Source of the DNA: Anaerolineaceae bacterium
Lineage (GTDB): Bacteria; Chloroflexota; Anaerolineae; Anaerolineales; Anaerolineaceae
Assembly (NCBI GenBank): GCA_016841445.1
Contig: JAENZD010000002.1
Coordinates: forward strand, 1 to 64,000
Reading direction: 5' to 3'
Length of the DNA stretch: 64,000 bases
Program-made: the position numbers and the translations under genes
Notes under the pieces: generated by a model
Told to the model about the DNA's origin: nothing
The model's database searches: none
What the model saw: the letters and a program-made list of their open reading frames with translations, nothing else
In this document: piece after piece, positions 10,664-39,806 of the stretch
How the letters are laid out: each line of letters begins with the position of its first letter
Position numbering within the stretch: the first letter of the stretch is position 1

Positions 10664-10700
10664 TGCAGTTTCTCAATTCGAAAGGATATGAGAAACTGCA
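10664..10700. repeat. 12-base inverted repeat at the livF/thiolase-like convergence
   Basis: TGCAGTTTCTCA at 10664-10675 is perfectly complementary to TGAGAAACTGCA at 10689-10700, with a 13-base loop. It overlaps the stop codon and last codons of the minus-strand thiolase-like gene. Neither strand has a T run, so it may be a 3-prime end stabiliser or Rho-associated end rather than an intrinsic terminator. Confidence 0.6.
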
Positions 10701-11830
10701 GTTGCTGCCATACCACCCAAACTCTGAATTAGCCCCAACTTTGCACCTTCAACCTGATTTTTACCTGCTTTCCCGCGTAACTGTAATGTTGCTTCAACCG
10801 CCTGGTATACACCTGCTGCACCCAGCGGGAATCCTCGGGCTTTCAAGCCACCAAATGTTGCTACTGGAATCTCGCCCGCCAACCCAATCACTTCAGGTTT
10901 GGCAAGCATCCAGCCCTGCCCCTGCGAAGCATATCCAGCCGCTTCAAGGGATAAGGCCGCATGCAGGGATGTCGCATCGTGATATTCAAAGAAATCCATA
11001 TCCTTGGGCATAACGCCTGCCTTCCGGCATGCGCGTTCTATTGAAAGACGCGCCGCATCCCATACCAGGGGTTGGTGGCGATCATGGATGGAAAGGGTAT
11101 CTGTCACCAGGCTCGAACCCAGGATCCAAACCGGTTTTTGATCATTACGTTGTGGATCATTTCCCCGTGTCAGCAGAACCGCTGCTGCACCGTCAGCATA
11201 AGGCGCAACATCAAACAGGTTCAGGATTTCAGCAGCTTTTGCCACCGTTCTTTCGTATGTACCCTCACCCATCGCTCGTTGGAACATCGCGTTGCGGTTC
11301 GTAGCTGCATTAGCATGCGCAACCTCCGGGAAGCCAGCAAAGGCATTCCGCTCAGGTTGATATTCCTGCAGGTAGCGGTGGAAGAGCAATCCCGCCAGAC
11401 TGAGCGGTGTCAGTCCCTGTGCGGCTTCAAAATCTGCGTCCAGCATTTGGGAAACAAAAGTTTCGGATTCTGGACCAATCACGTCCGTATATTTCTCAAC
11501 GCCTATCGCCAGCGCACTATCAACCGCACCGGAAAGTACAGCCAGGTAAGCCATCCGCAAAGCAGCCCCACCCGAGGCATCAGCCGCTTCAACCGTCACC
11601 CCTTCTACACCTGTCAAACCCACATCTTCCGTCAGTAGTGCACCTAAATTTGCCTGCAGTGAAGCTGAAGCTGCCAGCATATTGCCGATATACATCACCT
11701 GAGGTTTTATTCCGCCTGAATCTTCAATCGCTGCCAGGATGGCCCTTGCTGCCAACTGTCTGATCGATTTGTCCCAAAATTCCCCAACCTGAGTCTGCCC
11801 AATCCCTGCAACCATTACATCTGAATGCAT
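10673..11830 (-). CDS. Thiolase-fold protein lacking catalytic Cys, in HMG-CoA operon
   Basis: A 385-residue member of the SCP-x/archaeal-type thiolase family. The nucleophile motif that normally reads EAACASGG is EAADASGG here, with Asp at residue 84 (codon 11579-11581). The GHP motif is GFP, with Phe at 334 (codon 10829-10831). The central YHDAT His at 284 and the GGLKARG loop remain. With two core residues missing, normal Claisen condensation is unlikely; related Cys-less homologues act as retro-aldolases (Ltp2 type) or structural subunits. It is the last gene of the HMGR-HMGS unit, 17 bases behind HMGS, where archaea carry the true acetoacetyl-CoA thiolase. The usual small DUF35 partner is not present nearby. 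Confidence 0.85.
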   Translation of the reverse strand: MHSDVMVAGIGQTQVGEFWDKSIRQLAARAILAAIEDSGGIKPQVMYIGNMLAASASLQANLGALLTEDVGLTGVEGVTVEAADASGGAALRMAYLAVLSGAVDSALAIGVEKYTDVIGPESETFVSQMLDADFEAAQGLTPLSLAGLLFHRYLQEYQPERNAFAGFPEVAHANAATNRNAMFQRAMGEGTYERTVAKAAEILNLFDVAPYADGAAAVLLTRGNDPQRNDQKPVWILGSSLVTDTLSIHDRHQPLVWDAARLSIERACRKAGVMPKDMDFFEYHDATSLHAALSLEAAGYASQGQGWMLAKPEVIGLAGEIPVATFGGLKARGFPLGAAGVYQAVEATLQLRGKAGKNQVEGAKLGLIQSLGGMAATAVSHILSN

Positions 11831-11847: not shown

Positions 11848-12927
11848 TTATCGCATTGCAATCTTATTGCGGAAACGGGTATAGGTGGCATAATCGATTT
11901 CAGTCCGTCGAGCGATGTAATCCTGCGTTGCTAATGCAGCGTTTCTACGCTCAATCAAGGCATCCTGGGTGGTAAAAATGAAGGCATCAGAGCCAGCACC
12001 GGAGCCATAAGATGTGATCAATATACGATCACCGGGTTCAGCGATATCCAGCACAGCTGTTAGCCCGACCAGTGAAGCACCTGCGTAGGTGTTGCCAATC
12101 ACCGGTGAAAGTAATCCCGCTTTGATCTGTTCGGGTTTAAAACCAAGCTGCTTGCCAACCCGCACTGGGAATTTCTCATTGGGTTGATGAAAAACAGCAT
12201 ACTTGAAGTCTTCTGGATTCATACCCTCTACTTCCATCAGCGTGCTGGCAGCAGAGAGAGTGTGATCAAAATAAGCCGGCTCCCCAGTGAAACGCTGTCC
12301 GTGTTCAGGGTATTTTTGATGTGCTCGACGCCAAAAATCAGGGGTATCTGTGACATAGGAATAATGCGCATCAACCGTCGCAAGGGACTCTTCCGCCGGA
12401 CCAATGATAAATGCCGCACCCCCGGAGGATGCTGTATATTCGAGGGCATCACCCGGTTTACCCTGGGCAGTATCCATCCCAATTGCCAGGGCATAATCGC
12501 CCATTTGTGACCCGACCAAACCCATGGCGGCTACAAAAGCCTCGGTACCTGCTTTACATGCAAACTCCCAGTCCCCTGCCTGGATGTGCTCTGATGCCCC
12601 AATCGCTTCTGCAACGATCGTCCCGGAAGGTTTAACGGCATAAGGATGTGATTCCGAACCCACCCACACAGCCCGAAGCAGCCTTGCATCGATACCAGCT
12701 CTTGCAAGGGCATTCCTTGCCGCTTCAATTGACATCGTGATCACATCTTCGTCCAGCCCCGCTACTGCTTTTTCTATCACAGGACCAGGCAGAGGTTCCC
12801 CTTTCCAAACCCGTGAAATCTCTGTGCCGGGTAGGCGGTAGCGAGGGATATAGGCCCCATAGCCTACAATCCCAACCGCTCGCGCAGGCTTGTTAACCAA
12901 ATTGTTATGGCTCACCGAATCAGTCAT
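11848..12927 (-). CDS. Hydroxymethylglutaryl-CoA synthase, archaeal type
   Basis: A 359-residue enzyme condensing acetyl-CoA with acetoacetyl-CoA to HMG-CoA in the mevalonate pathway. Motifs follow the archaeal form: Glu in [12 protein letters not shown] (about residue 92), nucleophilic Cys in FACKAGT (about 124), His in FHQPNEKFP (about 247), and NTYAGAS near the C-terminus. All key residues are intact, unlike in the neighbouring thiolase-like protein. It begins 6 bases after the HMG-CoA reductase stop and uses a GGAG sequence inside that gene as ribosome-binding site, so the genes are translationally linked. Confidence 0.92.
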
Positions 12928-12933
12928 CAGGTC

Positions 12934-14217
12934 TTAACTCCATTTCTTCAAGATTTCCCGAGCATGGTCAATCCGTATCATTTTATCACTCACCAGTTTT
13001 TCCGCTAAGCGGTCAATTTGTGCGCCTTTTGCACCTGCAGCGGCGGCAACCTGCCGGGCATGCAAAGCCATATGCCCTTTTTGGATGCCCTCAGTCGCTA
13101 GCGCGCGCAGGGCAGCCAAGTTTTGAGCCAGGCCAACCGAAACAATGATTTCCGCAAGCTCTCCAGCTGTTTTAACACCCATCAGTTTCAAATTTGCTTT
13201 CGCAGCGGGGTGTACGCGGGTTGCTCCGCCGATAATACCTACCGCCATTGGCATTTCAAGCTTACCAACCAAGTTGCCCTCTGAGTCTTTATGCCAGGTG
13301 GAGAGGCTGGTGTACTTTCCGTTCCGTGCGGCATAGGCGTGCGCACCGGCTTCAATGGCACGCCAGTCGTTGCCTGTTGCGATCACAATGGGGTCAATCC
13401 CATTCATGATGCCCTTATTGTGGGTGGCTGCCCGGTAAGGATCAGAAACCGCAAACGCCCAGGCTTCTATGATACCATCACGGACTTCTTCACCAGAAAA
13501 ATCACCAAAGGCTAAATCCTTCGTCCGGATCCTCACCTGTGATATCGCTGTCCGCCGGTCTGCCAGGTTTGAGAGGATCCGCAAAAGCACCCGCCCCCCG
13601 GTTATACGCTCAATTTGCAGCGCTAATCGCTCTACGGCTGTGTTCACAGCATTCGCGCCCATGGCATCCCTGACATCATAGATGAGGTGAATGACCAAAA
13701 ATTCACCAATGGGTGAATCTTTGATCAACCGTACTTCCAGGTCCCGGGGCCCGCCGCCTAATTCTTTCAAGACTGGGTCAACCTCAGCAGTCGACGAAAG
13801 CAAAGCCTCCTGTTCTGACAGGATTCTCAAACGTGCAGAAGATGGATCAGAAATATCCAAAACCTGTATCTGGCCGATCATTTCCGGGGCGCTGGCTTGA
13901 GCAATAAAACCGCCTGTGCTGAGCGCTAGCTTTGCCATAAACGACGCCCCAGCCACGATTGATGGTTCTTCAACAACCATAGGTATCGGTACATCGCGCC
14001 CGTTGATCCGGAAGTGCTGTGCGATCCCCAGGGGCAGGCCAAACGTCCCCACAACATTTTCGATCATATGATCAGCATCGGACGAGGTTAACCCTGCCTC
14101 CCCGCTGATGACCGCCAGATCTTCTTCGGAAAGACCAAATTCTTCACCTAATAGGGCCAAACGCTCTTTAATTGATAGGTTGTAAAATTTCTTAATTTTA
14201 TCTGATCCTGAAGGCAT
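12934..14217 (-). CDS. mvaA: Hydroxymethylglutaryl-CoA reductase, class II
   Basis: A 427-residue soluble HMG-CoA reductase. Class II features are visible: ENVVGTFGLPLGIA, the Glu of VVEEPSIVAGAS, DAMGANAVNT, the Lys-containing KGIMNGID stretch and a late His in GHMALHARQ. Class II enzymes were first described as degradative (Pseudomonas mevalonii), but many bacteria use them for isoprenoid synthesis. Here the company of HMG-CoA synthase supports synthesis of mevalonate. It is the promoter-proximal gene of a three-gene minus-strand operon and is divergent from the histidine kinase gene. No mevalonate kinase genes are in the window. Confidence 0.92.
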   Translation of the reverse strand: MPSGSDKIKKFYNLSIKERLALLGEEFGLSEEDLAVISGEAGLTSSDADHMIENVVGTFGLPLGIAQHFRINGRDVPIPMVVEEPSIVAGASFMAKLALSTGGFIAQASAPEMIGQIQVLDISDPSSARLRILSEQEALLSSTAEVDPVLKELGGGPRDLEVRLIKDSPIGEFLVIHLIYDVRDAMGANAVNTAVERLALQIERITGGRVLLRILSNLADRRTAISQVRIRTKDLAFGDFSGEEVRDGIIEAWAFAVSDPYRAATHNKGIMNGIDPIVIATGNDWRAIEAGAHAYAARNGKYTSLSTWHKDSEGNLVGKLEMPMAVGIIGGATRVHPAAKANLKLMGVKTAGELAEIIVSVGLAQNLAALRALATEGIQKGHMALHARQVAAAAGAKGAQIDRLAEKLVSDKMIRIDHAREILKKWS

Positions 14218-30350: not shown

Positions 30351-33300
30351 TCAAAATTCAATCTGCCAACTAGGCGTGATGTACCACAGCTTGCCCATCG
30401 GCCCGCCGCAGGGGCCAGGTTCCGCCAGTCCTGGAGCAGCATCCAAACTGCCGCAGAAATAATCCTTTTCCCCCTTTGCCCAAACATTCTCACCGGGGAA
30501 GACCGGCCCCATATCCTCGAAAAGATGGGCATCTGCTTCACCAACATTTAGATCATCCAGAATGAGCGTCCGGATAGGATTCTCACGAGTGTAAACCGGA
30601 TGCCCGGAGCAGTGTTCGAAACTGATCTTGCAGTATTCTTTAATATTCATCTCATACCCCTCGCAATACTCATGGGTGGGGTACATGGCATGTTTATCCT
30701 CTGAGACATACAACAAGGGATGGGAATGTTCAAAGAATTCCAGCCCGTCAGCTTTGGCTTCCGCCACGGTTTGAAGGTGGCTTTCATAATCAAATCCTTC
30801 ATGATGGCGCTTCCAGTTAACGTGAGTCAATGACCAGGTCCCATTATTCTTTACCACAAACACCCTGAATGCTTCATTATCACCAGGATGGAAAGAAAGC
30901 CATTGTGAAACGTTATAATTCACACCAAAATCAGAGAGCTGGTCAATCCCAATCTCAATTGCCGTGCATGCGTTCCCAGTTTGGGTCAGAGCAACCGTCA
31001 CACCAGCTGGAAAGGTGATAACTTTTGATAAACAGCACAATGCATCCTTTGTCCAGGGTGGCCAGGGGTCACATTCACAGTAATCGATCACCGTCCCTGC
31101 AAAACACTTGGCACAATCCGGGAAATCAACATCAAAGTCATGCGTCCCGCCATCGCTGGTATAGCTGAATACATAAGTAATCCAGGCACCTTCCTTACCA
31201 TCTACATTCGCAGGACTGACCTGCCAAAATACAGCGAAGGGGTCTTGCCCTTCCGAGTGGTAGATGGGGAGTTGATTTTCATCCTCATCAGGGATCAGGT
31301 ACGGAACGTAAGTACTTGCCAGGCGATACTCCATTTCGTCAGGGATTGTATCGCCATCACAATCATCAAAATCACCAGAAGGACAGCCGGTTGGCTGAGG
31401 GGGTATTGATACTGTTGAACCCTTGGGGTGCGGCAGTCGGACAACAAGCTTGTAGATTCCAAAGGCACCATCATTCCGTTCAGGCAATCCTAAATAAAGA
31501 AAGTACCGTCCTGATGGATCATTCTCTGCATACATAAGTTGTTTGGCATCCCAGAAGCTGGTCGCCGGATCGTCTGAAGTGGTTCGGAAGAACTCCGCTG
31601 CGAACCTGCCGGCAGATTGGGTCAGATCCAGATCCCAGTAAGAACGGTCATCCAGCTCAAACTTCTTTTCTGCATACGTTGGAAGTTGATCGGTTCGTCC
31701 AATGAAATATTGCACGCCGGCATTCAATGCAGCAATTGGGATGATATTCCCATTTTTACCGGGATCATCCAGGAGCGCACTTTTAGCGGTCAGCGAAAAC
31801 ACCTGCGCCCCTTCAGGGAAATAAGCAGCATCGGCGTAACTAAAGGGGCTGTACAAGGTCGGTGAAGCCTCTTGGGTTGAGACATTTGAAAGGTAGTAGC
31901 CAAGGTCATTGGAGATGGCAAAATCACCGAAAACGATCAAACTATTATCCAGTTGACCTCTTACCCCTGAGGCGGCTTGGGAGCTGTTCATCTGTGTGGC
32001 AATAGCGGGATCAGCATTGGCCAGGTCATCCACCCGAAGCAGATCTTCATACTCCGTGCCAAACGTCCGGTACTGGCTGACCTGGGGCGGGGTCAGTAAA
32101 TTCGTGATATCCCCAGGTTTTTGCAATGCTATATAATCTTCCAGGAACCGATCATCTGAAAAACTCGCTGTTTCCGTAATAGAAGCTGACCTCTGGGCAT
32201 AATTCAGTTTATGAGCCGAGTTTTTCAGGTCTGTGACCAGCAGAGCCCCGCCCGATGGTGTTCTCCCACCTAGTAGAGCATTGATGTAATTGATCAGCAC
32301 ATCTTTTGACCCGCCATCGGGCAAGCGTGTGATCACCGTATCCGGAGAATGTAGTTTGTCATGATCAAAATCTGCATAAATATCATCGGAAACACCGTGG
32401 AATGGATCGAGTTCAGCCGGCGGTTCATGGGGGATCACATTCGGTCCACCGATGATTGCGACAGCTGCAGGAAGATCAACCTGCATATCCTTGATGAAAT
32501 CTTCAATTTGCTTGTCAATGAATTTATAAGTGGGATTGGTATCTTTCTTCAACTGGGCAATATCTAAGAATATCGCCTTCCCCATGCATTGATCTGCAGA
32601 AGAATCGTAATAATCCTCTAATGCCACCTTTACATCTTTCCAAGTTGTGTTATTGCCGGTAGATCGATTCAGCAGTTCCGAATCCGTCACAATCAAGATG
32701 AAGCCGCCCTGCCTTCGGCAGCTGAGTTCCACCACAGCAATAGTGATTGTAGAAGCCAATCCATTACCATTTGCATCGTAAGCTTCCAACCGATAATCCG
32801 TCGTTGTTTCGGGGCAAACGACTTGAGAGTCTTTAAAATCTTTTCGTTCACCATCAACATAAACTCTTTCTGCATCAACCACATCCCAATAGATCGTGGT
32901 GCATTCACCTTCAGTGATCTGATAATCGTCCGCCCAAAATTCAATGTCCGGCTCCAGCACAGGCGACTCATCAACATTAATAGTGATCGTTTCCAAATAT
33001 GTCTCGCCATCAATCCCCCTGACTTCCAGTGCGTATTCTATGGTTGTTTCAGGGCAAACCACCAGGCTGTCAGAATTGCCAACCAAATCCCCGTCAAAAT
33101 ACACCTTCTCAGCATCCCGGACTTCCCAATAGATCGTGGTGCAATCCCCCTCAAAAATATCATAAGCATCGGCATACAAGGAGATGTTCGGAGGCGGAAT
33201 GATCTCTTCTTCAACATAAATGATGAATGAGCTTGCATACCAGTACCCATCATCACCAAGCACATCCAGGATAAATTCAGTTGTCACTTCGGGGCAAACG

Positions 33301-34388
33301 ATCTCATTACCGTAATAATTCACCCATTCTCCATTAAAATAGACTTCCGCTGCGTTTATGGCTTCCCAATAAATTTCAGTACAATCACCAGTGGATAGGT
33401 CATAAGAATCCGCATTAAAAATGATGTCTGGTGGATCTATATCTACTTCCTCAAGAGTGATTGTCAGGAACTCTGAATACCAATAGCCATCATCACCAAG
33501 CACATCCAAAATATATTCGGTTGTGCTTTCCGGACAGACATCATTGACACCGCTATCGTAAACCCACTCACCCTCAAAATATACTTCCGAAGCGTTATAA
33601 ACTTCCCAGTAAATTGTCGTGCATTCCCCAAATTCCAGAAAGGTGTCATTCGCCCAAAAATTAACCTCAGGCGGGGGTTGAGGGTCCTCCTCAACGTAAA
33701 TTGTGAGTGTCCTTGAATACCAATACCCATCATCCCCCAGCACATCTAAAACATAATCCGTTGTGTAGTTCGGGCACACATTTTGGTAGCCGTAATCACT
33801 GACCCATGAACTTTCAAAATAAACTTCTGAAGCATATGTTACATCCCAGTTAATGTACGTACAGCTCCCCTGGGAAATCGTCTGTTCATCTGCCCATAAA
33901 TCAATGATCGGACTAAGTGTGACCGGTGCCTCCCCTTCAACAAGGATTTCAATCTCGAACCAACCTGGAATTTCATCATAACAATAATGCGAAATGTCAA
34001 AATCAATCTGATCAACATCTATTGATACGTATACTTCTAACCAATCCGTCCAACCCCCATCGGCTTCACCATCCACATATTCTTGGATCCAATTATCATA
34101 AGCATCTACAGCTGTAAGAAAACCGCTGTAATAACAGCTATCGGAATCATCCAGATGCAAATTGAGACGGATTGAGACTGTACGAGAATCAAAAGAAGAC
34201 CAATCATCCATTTGCAGATCAATTTCATAAGTGCGATCATTTGGATAAAACGAATCAAAATATGTCTGACCCAAAGTTAAATAATAAATATCGTCTGTAA
34301 ATTGTCTGGAAGGGTGGGGAAGGGAATTTGCGGAAATTGAAAAAACTACGGATAAAAGTACGATAAGATGGATTACCTGTTTCTTCAC
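30351..34388 (-). CDS. Large secreted protein: Ig-like repeats, C25 peptidase-like and Vps62-like domains
   Basis: A 1345-residue exported protein, starting at a GTG behind AGGAGAGAGG. A signal peptide ends near residue 21. A beta-rich N domain spans about 30-155. Five Ig-like repeats of exactly 80 residues span 161-555, each with a WxV core and two Cys 29 residues apart (176/205, 256/285, 336/365, 416/445, 496/525). Residues about 561-985 resemble gingipain-like C25 peptidases (GVSDDIYADFDHD, then a TRLPDGG segment), but I cannot find the catalytic His-Gly and Cys. Residues about 1020-1245 resemble the Vps62 family (TYVPYL, HPGDNEAFRV, LLYVSEDKHAMYP). Substrate and function are unknown. Confidence 0.8.
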   Translation of the reverse strand: MKKQVIHLIVLLSVVFSISANSLPHPSRQFTDDIYYLTLGQTYFDSFYPNDRTYEIDLQMDDWSSFDSRTVSIRLNLHLDDSDSCYYSGFLTAVDAYDNWIQEYVDGEADGGWTDWLEVYVSIDVDQIDFDISHYCYDEIPGWFEIEILVEGEAPVTLSPIIDLWADEQTISQGSCTYINWDVTYASEVYFESSWVSDYGYQNVCPNYTTDYVLDVLGDDGYWYSRTLTIYVEEDPQPPPEVNFWANDTFLEFGECTTIYWEVYNASEVYFEGEWVYDSGVNDVCPESTTEYILDVLGDDGYWYSEFLTITLEEVDIDPPDIIFNADSYDLSTGDCTEIYWEAINAAEVYFNGEWVNYYGNEIVCPEVTTEFILDVLGDDGYWYASSFIIYVEEEIIPPPNISLYADAYDIFEGDCTTIYWEVRDAEKVYFDGDLVGNSDSLVVCPETTIEYALEVRGIDGETYLETITINVDESPVLEPDIEFWADDYQITEGECTTIYWDVVDAERVYVDGERKDFKDSQVVCPETTTDYRLEAYDANGNGLASTITIAVVELSCRRQGGFILIVTDSELLNRSTGNNTTWKDVKVALEDYYDSSADQCMGKAIFLDIAQLKKDTNPTYKFIDKQIEDFIKDMQVDLPAAVAIIGGPNVIPHEPPAELDPFHGVSDDIYADFDHDKLHSPDTVITRLPDGGSKDVLINYINALLGGRTPSGGALLVTDLKNSAHKLNYAQRSASITETASFSDDRFLEDYIALQKPGDITNLLTPPQVSQYRTFGTEYEDLLRVDDLANADPAIATQMNSSQAASGVRGQLDNSLIVFGDFAISNDLGYYLSNVSTQEASPTLYSPFSYADAAYFPEGAQVFSLTAKSALLDDPGKNGNIIPIAALNAGVQYFIGRTDQLPTYAEKKFELDDRSYWDLDLTQSAGRFAAEFFRTTSDDPATSFWDAKQLMYAENDPSGRYFLYLGLPERNDGAFGIYKLVVRLPHPKGSTVSIPPQPTGCPSGDFDDCDGDTIPDEMEYRLASTYVPYLIPDEDENQLPIYHSEGQDPFAVFWQVSPANVDGKEGAWITYVFSYTSDGGTHDFDVDFPDCAKCFAGTVIDYCECDPWPPWTKDALCCLSKVITFPAGVTVALTQTGNACTAIEIGIDQLSDFGVNYNVSQWLSFHPGDNEAFRVFVVKNNGTWSLTHVNWKRHHEGFDYESHLQTVAEAKADGLEFFEHSHPLLYVSEDKHAMYPTHEYCEGYEMNIKEYCKISFEHCSGHPVYTRENPIRTLILDDLNVGEADAHLFEDMGPVFPGENVWAKGEKDYFCGSLDAAPGLAEPGPCGGPMGKLWYITPSWQIEF
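32724..33908 (-). repeat. Five tandem 240-base units encoding Ig-like domains
   Basis: Each unit codes for 80 residues with the same spacing: Cys, then a W-E/D-V core, a VYF segment, a second Cys followed by PE-x-TT, then a strand and DDGYWY or similar. Units one to three are most alike (DVLGDDGYWY is shared); units four and five have diverged. The exact periodicity suggests duplication of a whole domain cassette. Confidence 0.85.
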
Positions 34389-38594: not shown

Positions 38595-39806
38595 ATGCCC
38601 GAAGCTGTGATTGTTGATGCTATCCGAAGCCCGATTGGCAACCTGGGAGGCGCATTATCTTCCGTTCGTCCGGATGACCTGGCAGCGTTGGTCATCAAAG
38701 CAATTGCAGAGAGAAATGATCTCAACCCGTCCTTGATCGAAGAGGTTTATCTTGGCTGTGCAAACCAGGCGGGGGAGGACAACCGCAACATCGCCCGGAT
38801 GGCCGCCTTATTGGCAGGACTGTCTGTGAATGTCCCTGGGGTTACGATCAACCGTTTGTGTGCGTCAGGACTAACAGCTATCAATACTGCAGCGCGTTCA
38901 ATTCGTGCAGGAGATGGTGATGTTTTCATCGCGGGCGGTGTTGAAAGTATGAGCCGCGCCCCATATGCCATGCCCAAATCCAGTCGACCCGTTGGAAACC
39001 TCACCGCTTATGACACCACCCTGGGCTGGCGTTTCGTCAATCCACGGATGGAGGAATTGTACGGTACAGATCCCCTGGGGATCACCGCTGAGAACATCGC
39101 TGAGATGACGGGTATCACACGAGAAAGTCAAGATCAGTTTGCCCTCGTCAGCCACCAAAGGGCAGTTGCAGCCATTGATTCAGGAAAATTCGAGCAGGAA
39201 ATTCTACCCATCCCTGTGAAACAGCGCAAAGGTGAGCCCATCATTTTTGATACAGATGAACGCCCTCGCAGGGATACGACAATTGAAGCCCTCAGCCGGC
39301 TGCGGCCTGCATTTAAAGAAAACGGTACTGTCACCGCCGGGAACAGCTCCGGCCTTAATGACGGCGCAGCCGCCTTATTGGTGATGAGCGAAGAAAAAGC
39401 CAGGGCGCTGGGGCTCAAGCCCATGGCACGGATTGTAAGCATGGCGTCTGCCGGCGTTCCCCCCCGCACAATGGGTCTGGGTCCCATCCCTGCCACAGAA
39501 AAAGCCCTGCAGCGGGCAGGGCTGGAAGTGAAAGACATTCAACTCGTTGAACTTAATGAGGCGTTTGCTGTCCAGGCGCTAGCCGCCATGGATGGTCTGG
39601 GGCTTGAGCATGAGATCTCGAATGTCAACGGCGGTGCGGTTGCTTTAGGACACCCGTTGGGCTGCTCCGGCGCCCGGATCATGACGACATTGTTATACGA
39701 AATGCGCCGAAGAGCAAAGAATGCTCATAAACCTTTTTACGGTCTGGCAACCCTCTGCGTAGGCGTCGGACAGGGTGAAAGCACCATCGTCCAGTGGATG
39801 GATTAA
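38595..39806 (+). CDS. Acetyl-CoA acetyltransferase (thiolase)
   Basis: A 403-residue thiolase of the biosynthetic/degradative PcaF-AtoB group with an intact active site. Nucleophilic Cys is at about residue 89 (NRLCASGL), [11 protein letters not shown] carries the His, and CVGVGQG carries the second Cys. It has an AGGAGA ribosome-binding site. The gene is alone; its stop overlaps that of htpG on the opposite strand. It could make acetoacetyl-CoA for the mevalonate pathway, compensating for the inactive-looking paralogue in that operon, or act in beta-oxidation or butyrate metabolism. Confidence 0.93.

Follow-up and report, generated by a model that had tools for sequence, protein, structure and literature searches.

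A Cys-less thiolase-fold protein in the mevalonate operon of Anaerolineaceae may be retained as a structural partner of HMG-CoA synthase

In the one solved complex, that of Methanothermococcus thermolithotrophicus (6ESQ, 6ET9), an archaeal-type HMG-CoA synthase (HMGS) and an active thiolase have a CoA site in common, and in 6ESQ thiolase, HMGS and DUF35 all contribute residues to CoA binding (PMC6392133). The same source describes the PhlABC complex of Pseudomonas protegens (5M3K), which also combines thiolase-like, HMGS-like and DUF35-type subunits and in which one condensing fold is deprived of catalytic residues: the HMGS-like PhlA has neither Cys nor Glu and is considered necessary for the complex to assemble, whereas the thiolase-like PhlC is active and bears the Cys. 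MucABC (9VBO) may be a comparable system. The steroid aldolases Ltp2 and Sal possess a thiolase fold with other catalytic residues and without normal thiolase chemistry, are bound to DUF35 and use a catalytic Tyr within a YDHF/YDCY motif (PMC12329534); they associate with a steroid hydratase. Finally, PMC13001223 cites a report (Kanno 2024) on a Chloroflexota bacterium with a mevalonate pathway of the archaeal type. We found no description of a mevalonate-operon thiolase that lacks the Cys in the titles and abstract beginnings of the open-licence literature, which is a weak indication of novelty.

Here, we analysed a 64,000-nucleotide stretch of the genome of an Anaerolineaceae bacterium (hereafter, the window). 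On its minus strand, three genes follow one another in the order HMG-CoA reductase (HMGR; 12934..14217, 427 aa), archaeal-type HMGS (11848..12927, 359 aa) and a thiolase-fold protein of 385 aa that we call ThlA (10673..11830), with gaps of 6 and 17 bases, respectively, and with an AGGAG a little upstream of the ThlA start codon. The first two products are readily recognized (HMGR: PF00368, 363.7 bits, and TIGR00532, 409.6 bits; HMGS: NF003274, 528.8 bits at a cut-off of 244, and TIGR00748, 515.9 bits at a cut-off of 353.35), and HMGS carries Glu92, Cys124 and His247, the established catalytic triad. ThlA exceeds the Pfam cut-offs for Thiolase_C_1 (126.6 bits) and Thiolase_N (50.1 bits) and stays below the cut-off for all 23 NCBIfam matches listed. 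Two side observations concern the annotation of the window: TIGR00532, the model matching the HMGR that adjoins an archaeal-type HMGS, is named degradative, and a 1345-aa frame with a GTG start (30351-34388) has no Pfam match at 0.001.

The AF2 model of ThlA (mean pLDDT 94.6) was compared with solved structures. With VIA-align it came closest to the thiolase subunits in the M. thermolithotrophicus structures, 6et9_C (Z 59.5, rmsd 1.7, 378 positions aligned) and 6esq_A (Z 59.2), which ThlA also resembles in length; the Pyrococcus furiosus thiolase 7YVY, with a VIA-align Z of 57.2, was the top Foldseek match. ThlA is thus predicted to adopt the fold that the thiolase has in the archaeal thiolase/HMGS/DUF35 complex, and the likeness extends to the position of its gene beside an archaeal-type HMGS and to the DUF35 encoded in many order-level operons. 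PhlABC (5M3K), MucABC (9VBO) and the aldolase structures 6ok1 and 9myr also appear among the fold matches, and in ST0096 from Sulfolobus tokodaii (4YZO), a thiolase-like protein with 28% identity in the structural alignment, a Ser is aligned to Asp84 of ThlA. Unlike the archaeal complex and P. furiosus thiolases, which have Cys, His and His at positions 84, 284 and 334 (C-H-H in 7YVY and 6ESQ), ThlA is devoid of the nucleophilic Cys and of the His of the GHP motif, and it reaches 280 bits against the NCBIfam equivalog NF053570, the cut-off of which is 600.

Just as the original prediction stated, codon 84 of ThlA (11579..11581) is GAT, which puts Asp in the place of the nucleophile (VEAADASGGA), codon 334 (10829..10831) is TTC, which puts Phe in the place of the GHP His (KARGFPLG), and codon 284 (10979..10981) is CAC, so that the His of the HD motif is retained (EYHDAT). 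The two substitutions behave differently in the genus, where we compared 12 members (11 loci and the window; a partial copy in one genome was left out). Asp84 is present in all 12, whereas position 334 is His in seven, Asn in four and Phe only in the window, such that the predominant pattern is D-H-H (7/12). The loss of both residues is therefore true of the window sequence, and only the loss of the Cys is common to the genus members read; the alternative considered in advance, namely that homologues keep Cys and GHP, holds for the GHP His in 7/12 members and for the Cys in none. The suspicion of base-call errors is rejected for Asp84 and unlikely to be true for Phe334, since getting from any Cys codon to GAT, or from any His codon to TTC, takes two substitutions, and since all 12 genus members carry Asp84.

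We further followed the family through other genomes. Of the 61 genomes searched, our own included, at least 60 contain a match. One set of loci comprised the 80 most similar to a ThlA alignment out of 411; at the class level, where at least 239 genomes have a match, stretches came from 51 hand-chosen genomes plus 1 plus 9, and most of the genomes sampled are drafts. Because the loci were picked by ThlA similarity or by hand, the counts given below are not frequencies. After removal of sequences shorter than 300 aa upon trimming and of identical cores, 216 of 231 homologues remained and were placed, along with the window protein and two archaeal references, in a FastTree phylogeny of 219 rows from which the three catalytic columns had been removed. 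In this tree, 127 rows form a single Cys-less clade (local support 0.67), 126 of which adjoin HMGS or HMGR. Cys84 is missing from 127 of 159 operon-linked homologues and from 8 of 58 unlinked ones in this sample, which leans towards ThlA. Nine further class loci (of ten) analysed outside the trees are also all Cys-less. Other Anaerolineae families bear a canonical thiolase in the equivalent operon slot: among the 32 operon-linked rows with Cys, 30 are C-H-H. Two operon thiolases (L266 and L267) have Cys84 together with Asn334 (GNP) and may represent a decay intermediate.

When 94 selected rows were analysed under a mixture model, all Cys-less operon copies but L216 likewise grouped together (support 85). 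Four loci (L209, L210, L272 and L273) stand apart from the main Cys-less clade in a FastTree including other-class rows and lie at the base of this clade in the mixture-model tree (support 85, not starred). The single clade is moderately supported, one tree splitting it. One nested case, L216, looks like an independent Cys loss, though a single clade including it is not rejected by the AU test (p 0.341); we do not adopt repeated independent losses. Nor do the trees uphold a set sequence of losses, with the Cys first, the GHP His second and the HD His last, because some early branches keep both His residues and L287 and L274-L280 are without His284.

Does the Cys-less protein maintain a chemistry of its own? 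The original prediction had allowed for an aldolase, and more generally ThlA might be active with changed chemistry, either as an Ltp2/Sal-like aldolase or as a hydrolase or decarboxylase acting through Asp84 and the remaining His. The existence of Ltp2 and Sal sets a precedent, and the constancy of Asp84 and the D-H-H pattern in the genus also speak for it; because 7 of 12 members have this pattern, part of the ThlA site may still be used. Over the clade, however, the residues vary: the Cys-less operon copies of the order and class have G, D, E, Q, N, S or A at position 84, His284 is kept in 80 of 127 members, and all three catalytic residues are gone in 46. Tyr, which would correspond to the catalytic Tyr of the aldolases if the YDHF and HDAF motifs are place-matched, occurs at position 284 in only 6 of 127, the window protein having His there. 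We therefore reject the Ltp2/Sal-type aldolase for the clade and regard changed chemistry in general as quite unlikely. As for the steroid hydratase with which these aldolases associate, the other operon genes of the window encode HMGR and HMGS.

The pattern of change within the clade leads to the same view. Inside ThlA, Fitch parsimony counted 22, 28 and 29 changes at positions 84, 284 and 334, compared with a median of 6 over the 121 positions that both canonical groups conserve, which served as the reference set; therefore, no single new chemistry is being maintained in the clade. The corresponding counts are 0/0/0 in the stand-alone paralogue ThlB and 0/0/1 in the canonical operon thiolases, on smaller trees (lengths 11.3 and 6.2, respectively, vs. 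34.1 for ThlA). Per unit tree length, the rates in ThlA are 0.64, 0.82 and 0.85, near the median position (0.62; percentiles 0.51 to 0.65 of all positions). The three positions rank 25th, 15th and 13th among the 121; with 24 canonical positions outranking position 84, ThlA has sites that change more readily than its catalytic ones. Of these 121, ThlA retains 73 at a level of at least 90%, while 19 have fallen to 50% or below; the GHP His is retained in 8% and the HD His in 54%, and Cys84 in 0% by construction, the group having been chosen as Cys-less. Among the positions that the two canonical groups share, ThlA has lost 28, compared with 12 that both operon groups keep and ThlB lacks.

Such erosion, with all three catalytic residues gone in more than a third of the Cys-less operon members, might be expected of a decaying gene without function. 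ThlA is, however, under purifying selection. For G006-G013, the least saturated among the pairs listed (dS in the genus being mostly saturated), dN/dS was 0.044 for ThlA, 0.034 for HMGS, 0.087 for HMGR and 0.057 for ThlB, and the genus median pN/pS was 0.229, 0.167, 0.242 and 0.161, respectively. The operon place of the gene is kept across classes and no internal stop was seen among the matches listed, so gene decay is rejected on the grounds of selection and has a very small probability.

In the same operons, the partners of ThlA look intact. HMGS Glu92, Cys124 and His247 are kept in all 122 ThlA-type operons aligned, and the four Cys of DUF35 in all 67. DUF35 lies near 73 of the 127 members of the Cys-less clade; adjoining the operon it was not found in the 11 genus loci (L036-L046). 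The genome to which the window belongs encodes its DUF35 on another contig (C5:43627-43815), unlinked to the operon, with a median identity of 74% to the copies from ThlA-type operons.

We also looked beyond the Anaerolineae. A match at 1e-60 is present in 50 of 151 Chloroflexota genomes, and 20 loci were read. Nine loci of other classes adjoin a close HMGS homologue (L274-L281 and L287), and all nine have Gly84 in the thiolase and the three catalytic residues in HMGS. One HMGS-linked locus from the class of the window (L293) is C-H-H, and so are the remaining ten, which have no close HMGS homologue adjoining (one of them, L292, has a 27% one). The DUF35 adjoining the Cys-less thiolase has no zinc-ribbon Cys in L274-L281 (all four absent, 8/8), L287 keeping them; for this reason the complex may differ outside the Anaerolineae. 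Despite the loss of all four Cys, a C-terminal TAQLTD...YGYKFRP-like region is retained in the DUF35 of L274-L281.

If ThlA makes no acetoacetyl-CoA, another enzyme should, and candidates are at hand. The window itself encodes an ordinary thiolase II on the plus strand (38595..39806; CASG, NEAF, GHP and CVG motifs; TIGR01930, 484.1 bits; also matched by Pfam), which lies outside the operon and, related to it by function, is a possible source of acetoacetyl-CoA. A TIGR01930 thiolase above the cut-off was present in all 26 genomes checked. The new wiring of the upper mevalonate pathway put forward in the original prediction is supported in this sense, that acetoacetyl-CoA would come from another thiolase. 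A second candidate is ThlB, whose clade of 47 is C-H-H throughout and adjoins HMGS or HMGR in only three cases. The ThlB of our own genome (C3:1079766-1080905) is 46% identical to ThlA, is C-H-H and has neither HMGS nor HMGR adjoining. Other variants were seen in the family: L237, L242, L243, L247, L260 and L261 have Thr for the nucleophilic Cys with both His kept and HMGS/HMGR not adjoining, and a homologue in L073 (5997-7229; C3:1565047-1566216 of our own genome) has PASG, i.e., Pro at the nucleophile, both His residues and a DUF35 directly after it.

The presence of ThlB suggests one more possibility, a mixed oligomer in which ThlB would perform the catalysis and HMGS and DUF35 would dock onto ThlA. 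Among 40 hand-assigned genomes with an operon ThlA (at least 90% complete, among the matches listed, one fragmented genome left out), 31 also carry a C-H-H ThlB; one locus (L055) has both in one stretch with DUF35 between them; and 12 positions kept in both operon groups are lost in ThlB, though this may reflect branching order. On the other hand, three of the 40 genomes have the Thr version only and six have neither, the eight other-class genomes of L274-L281 show one match each at E 1e-60, and ThlB is mostly unlinked. Obligatory ThlA-ThlB pairing is thus not general, ThlB being absent from some ThlA genomes, and we consider the mixed oligomer unlikely.

The mevalonate pathway is probably the only isoprenoid route of this bacterium: its genome encodes three GHMP kinases, and DXR, GcpE and LytB were not found in it, although the search recovered each of them from 9 or 10 genomes of a control set of 14.

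Taken together, the data lead us to propose, with a probability of about 0.6, that ThlA is a pseudothiolase kept as a structural, probably CoA-site, partner of HMGS. The non-condensing scaffold or CoA-binding partner envisaged in the original prediction gains support from the clade-wide loss of the Cys within an HMGS operon, from purifying selection, from the predicted fold and from the intact HMGS. The ancestor of ThlA would have been an active thiolase working within a thiolase/HMGS/DUF35 complex of the archaeal type; its nucleophilic Cys would have been lost early in Chloroflexota evolution, and the other catalytic residues piecemeal. The protein would have been retained because HMGS still needs a thiolase-fold partner, which would form a dimeric scaffold with DUF35 and probably line one side of the CoA site that is shared. 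Judging from its residues, ThlA would possess no thiolase activity; acetoacetyl-CoA would be provided by ThlB or thiolase II, and HMGS would draw it from the pool and no longer by channelling. Formation of the ThlA/HMGS/DUF35 complex, the role of ThlA as a CoA half-site and the dependence of HMGS on it are what we infer from these comparisons. By analogy, ThlA looks like a mirror image of PhlABC (PMC6392133): there an HMGS-like subunit is catalytically stripped and the thiolase-like one is active, whereas here a dead thiolase, with Asp84, would be kept for a live HMGS. A sensor of CoA or acetoacetyl-CoA that regulates HMGS, instead of a passive half-site, would equally fit the predicted thiolase fold, the 73 canonical positions kept and the variable catalytic residues; by sequence it is indistinguishable from a scaffold, and we give it little weight.

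The structural role proposed for ThlA bears on the purpose of the complex itself. Lineages with a dead-looking but kept thiolase offer a direct test of whether the complex serves structure and CoA binding or channelling. Two cultured carriers make the reading testable, namely Leptolinea tardivitalis YMTK-2 (L110, identical to L052), which is G-C-N at the three catalytic positions, and Longilinea arvoryzae KOME-1 (L125), which is E-W-F. If the reading is true, annotations and pathway models that assign the first step of the mevalonate pathway in these bacteria to ThlA would be wrong. More tentatively, and at somewhat less than even odds, HMGS across much of Chloroflexota may work only as a holoenzyme with a dead thiolase completing its CoA site, the complex having been kept and channelling given up; a central enzyme of isoprenoid synthesis would then have a pseudoenzyme among its obligatory subunits.
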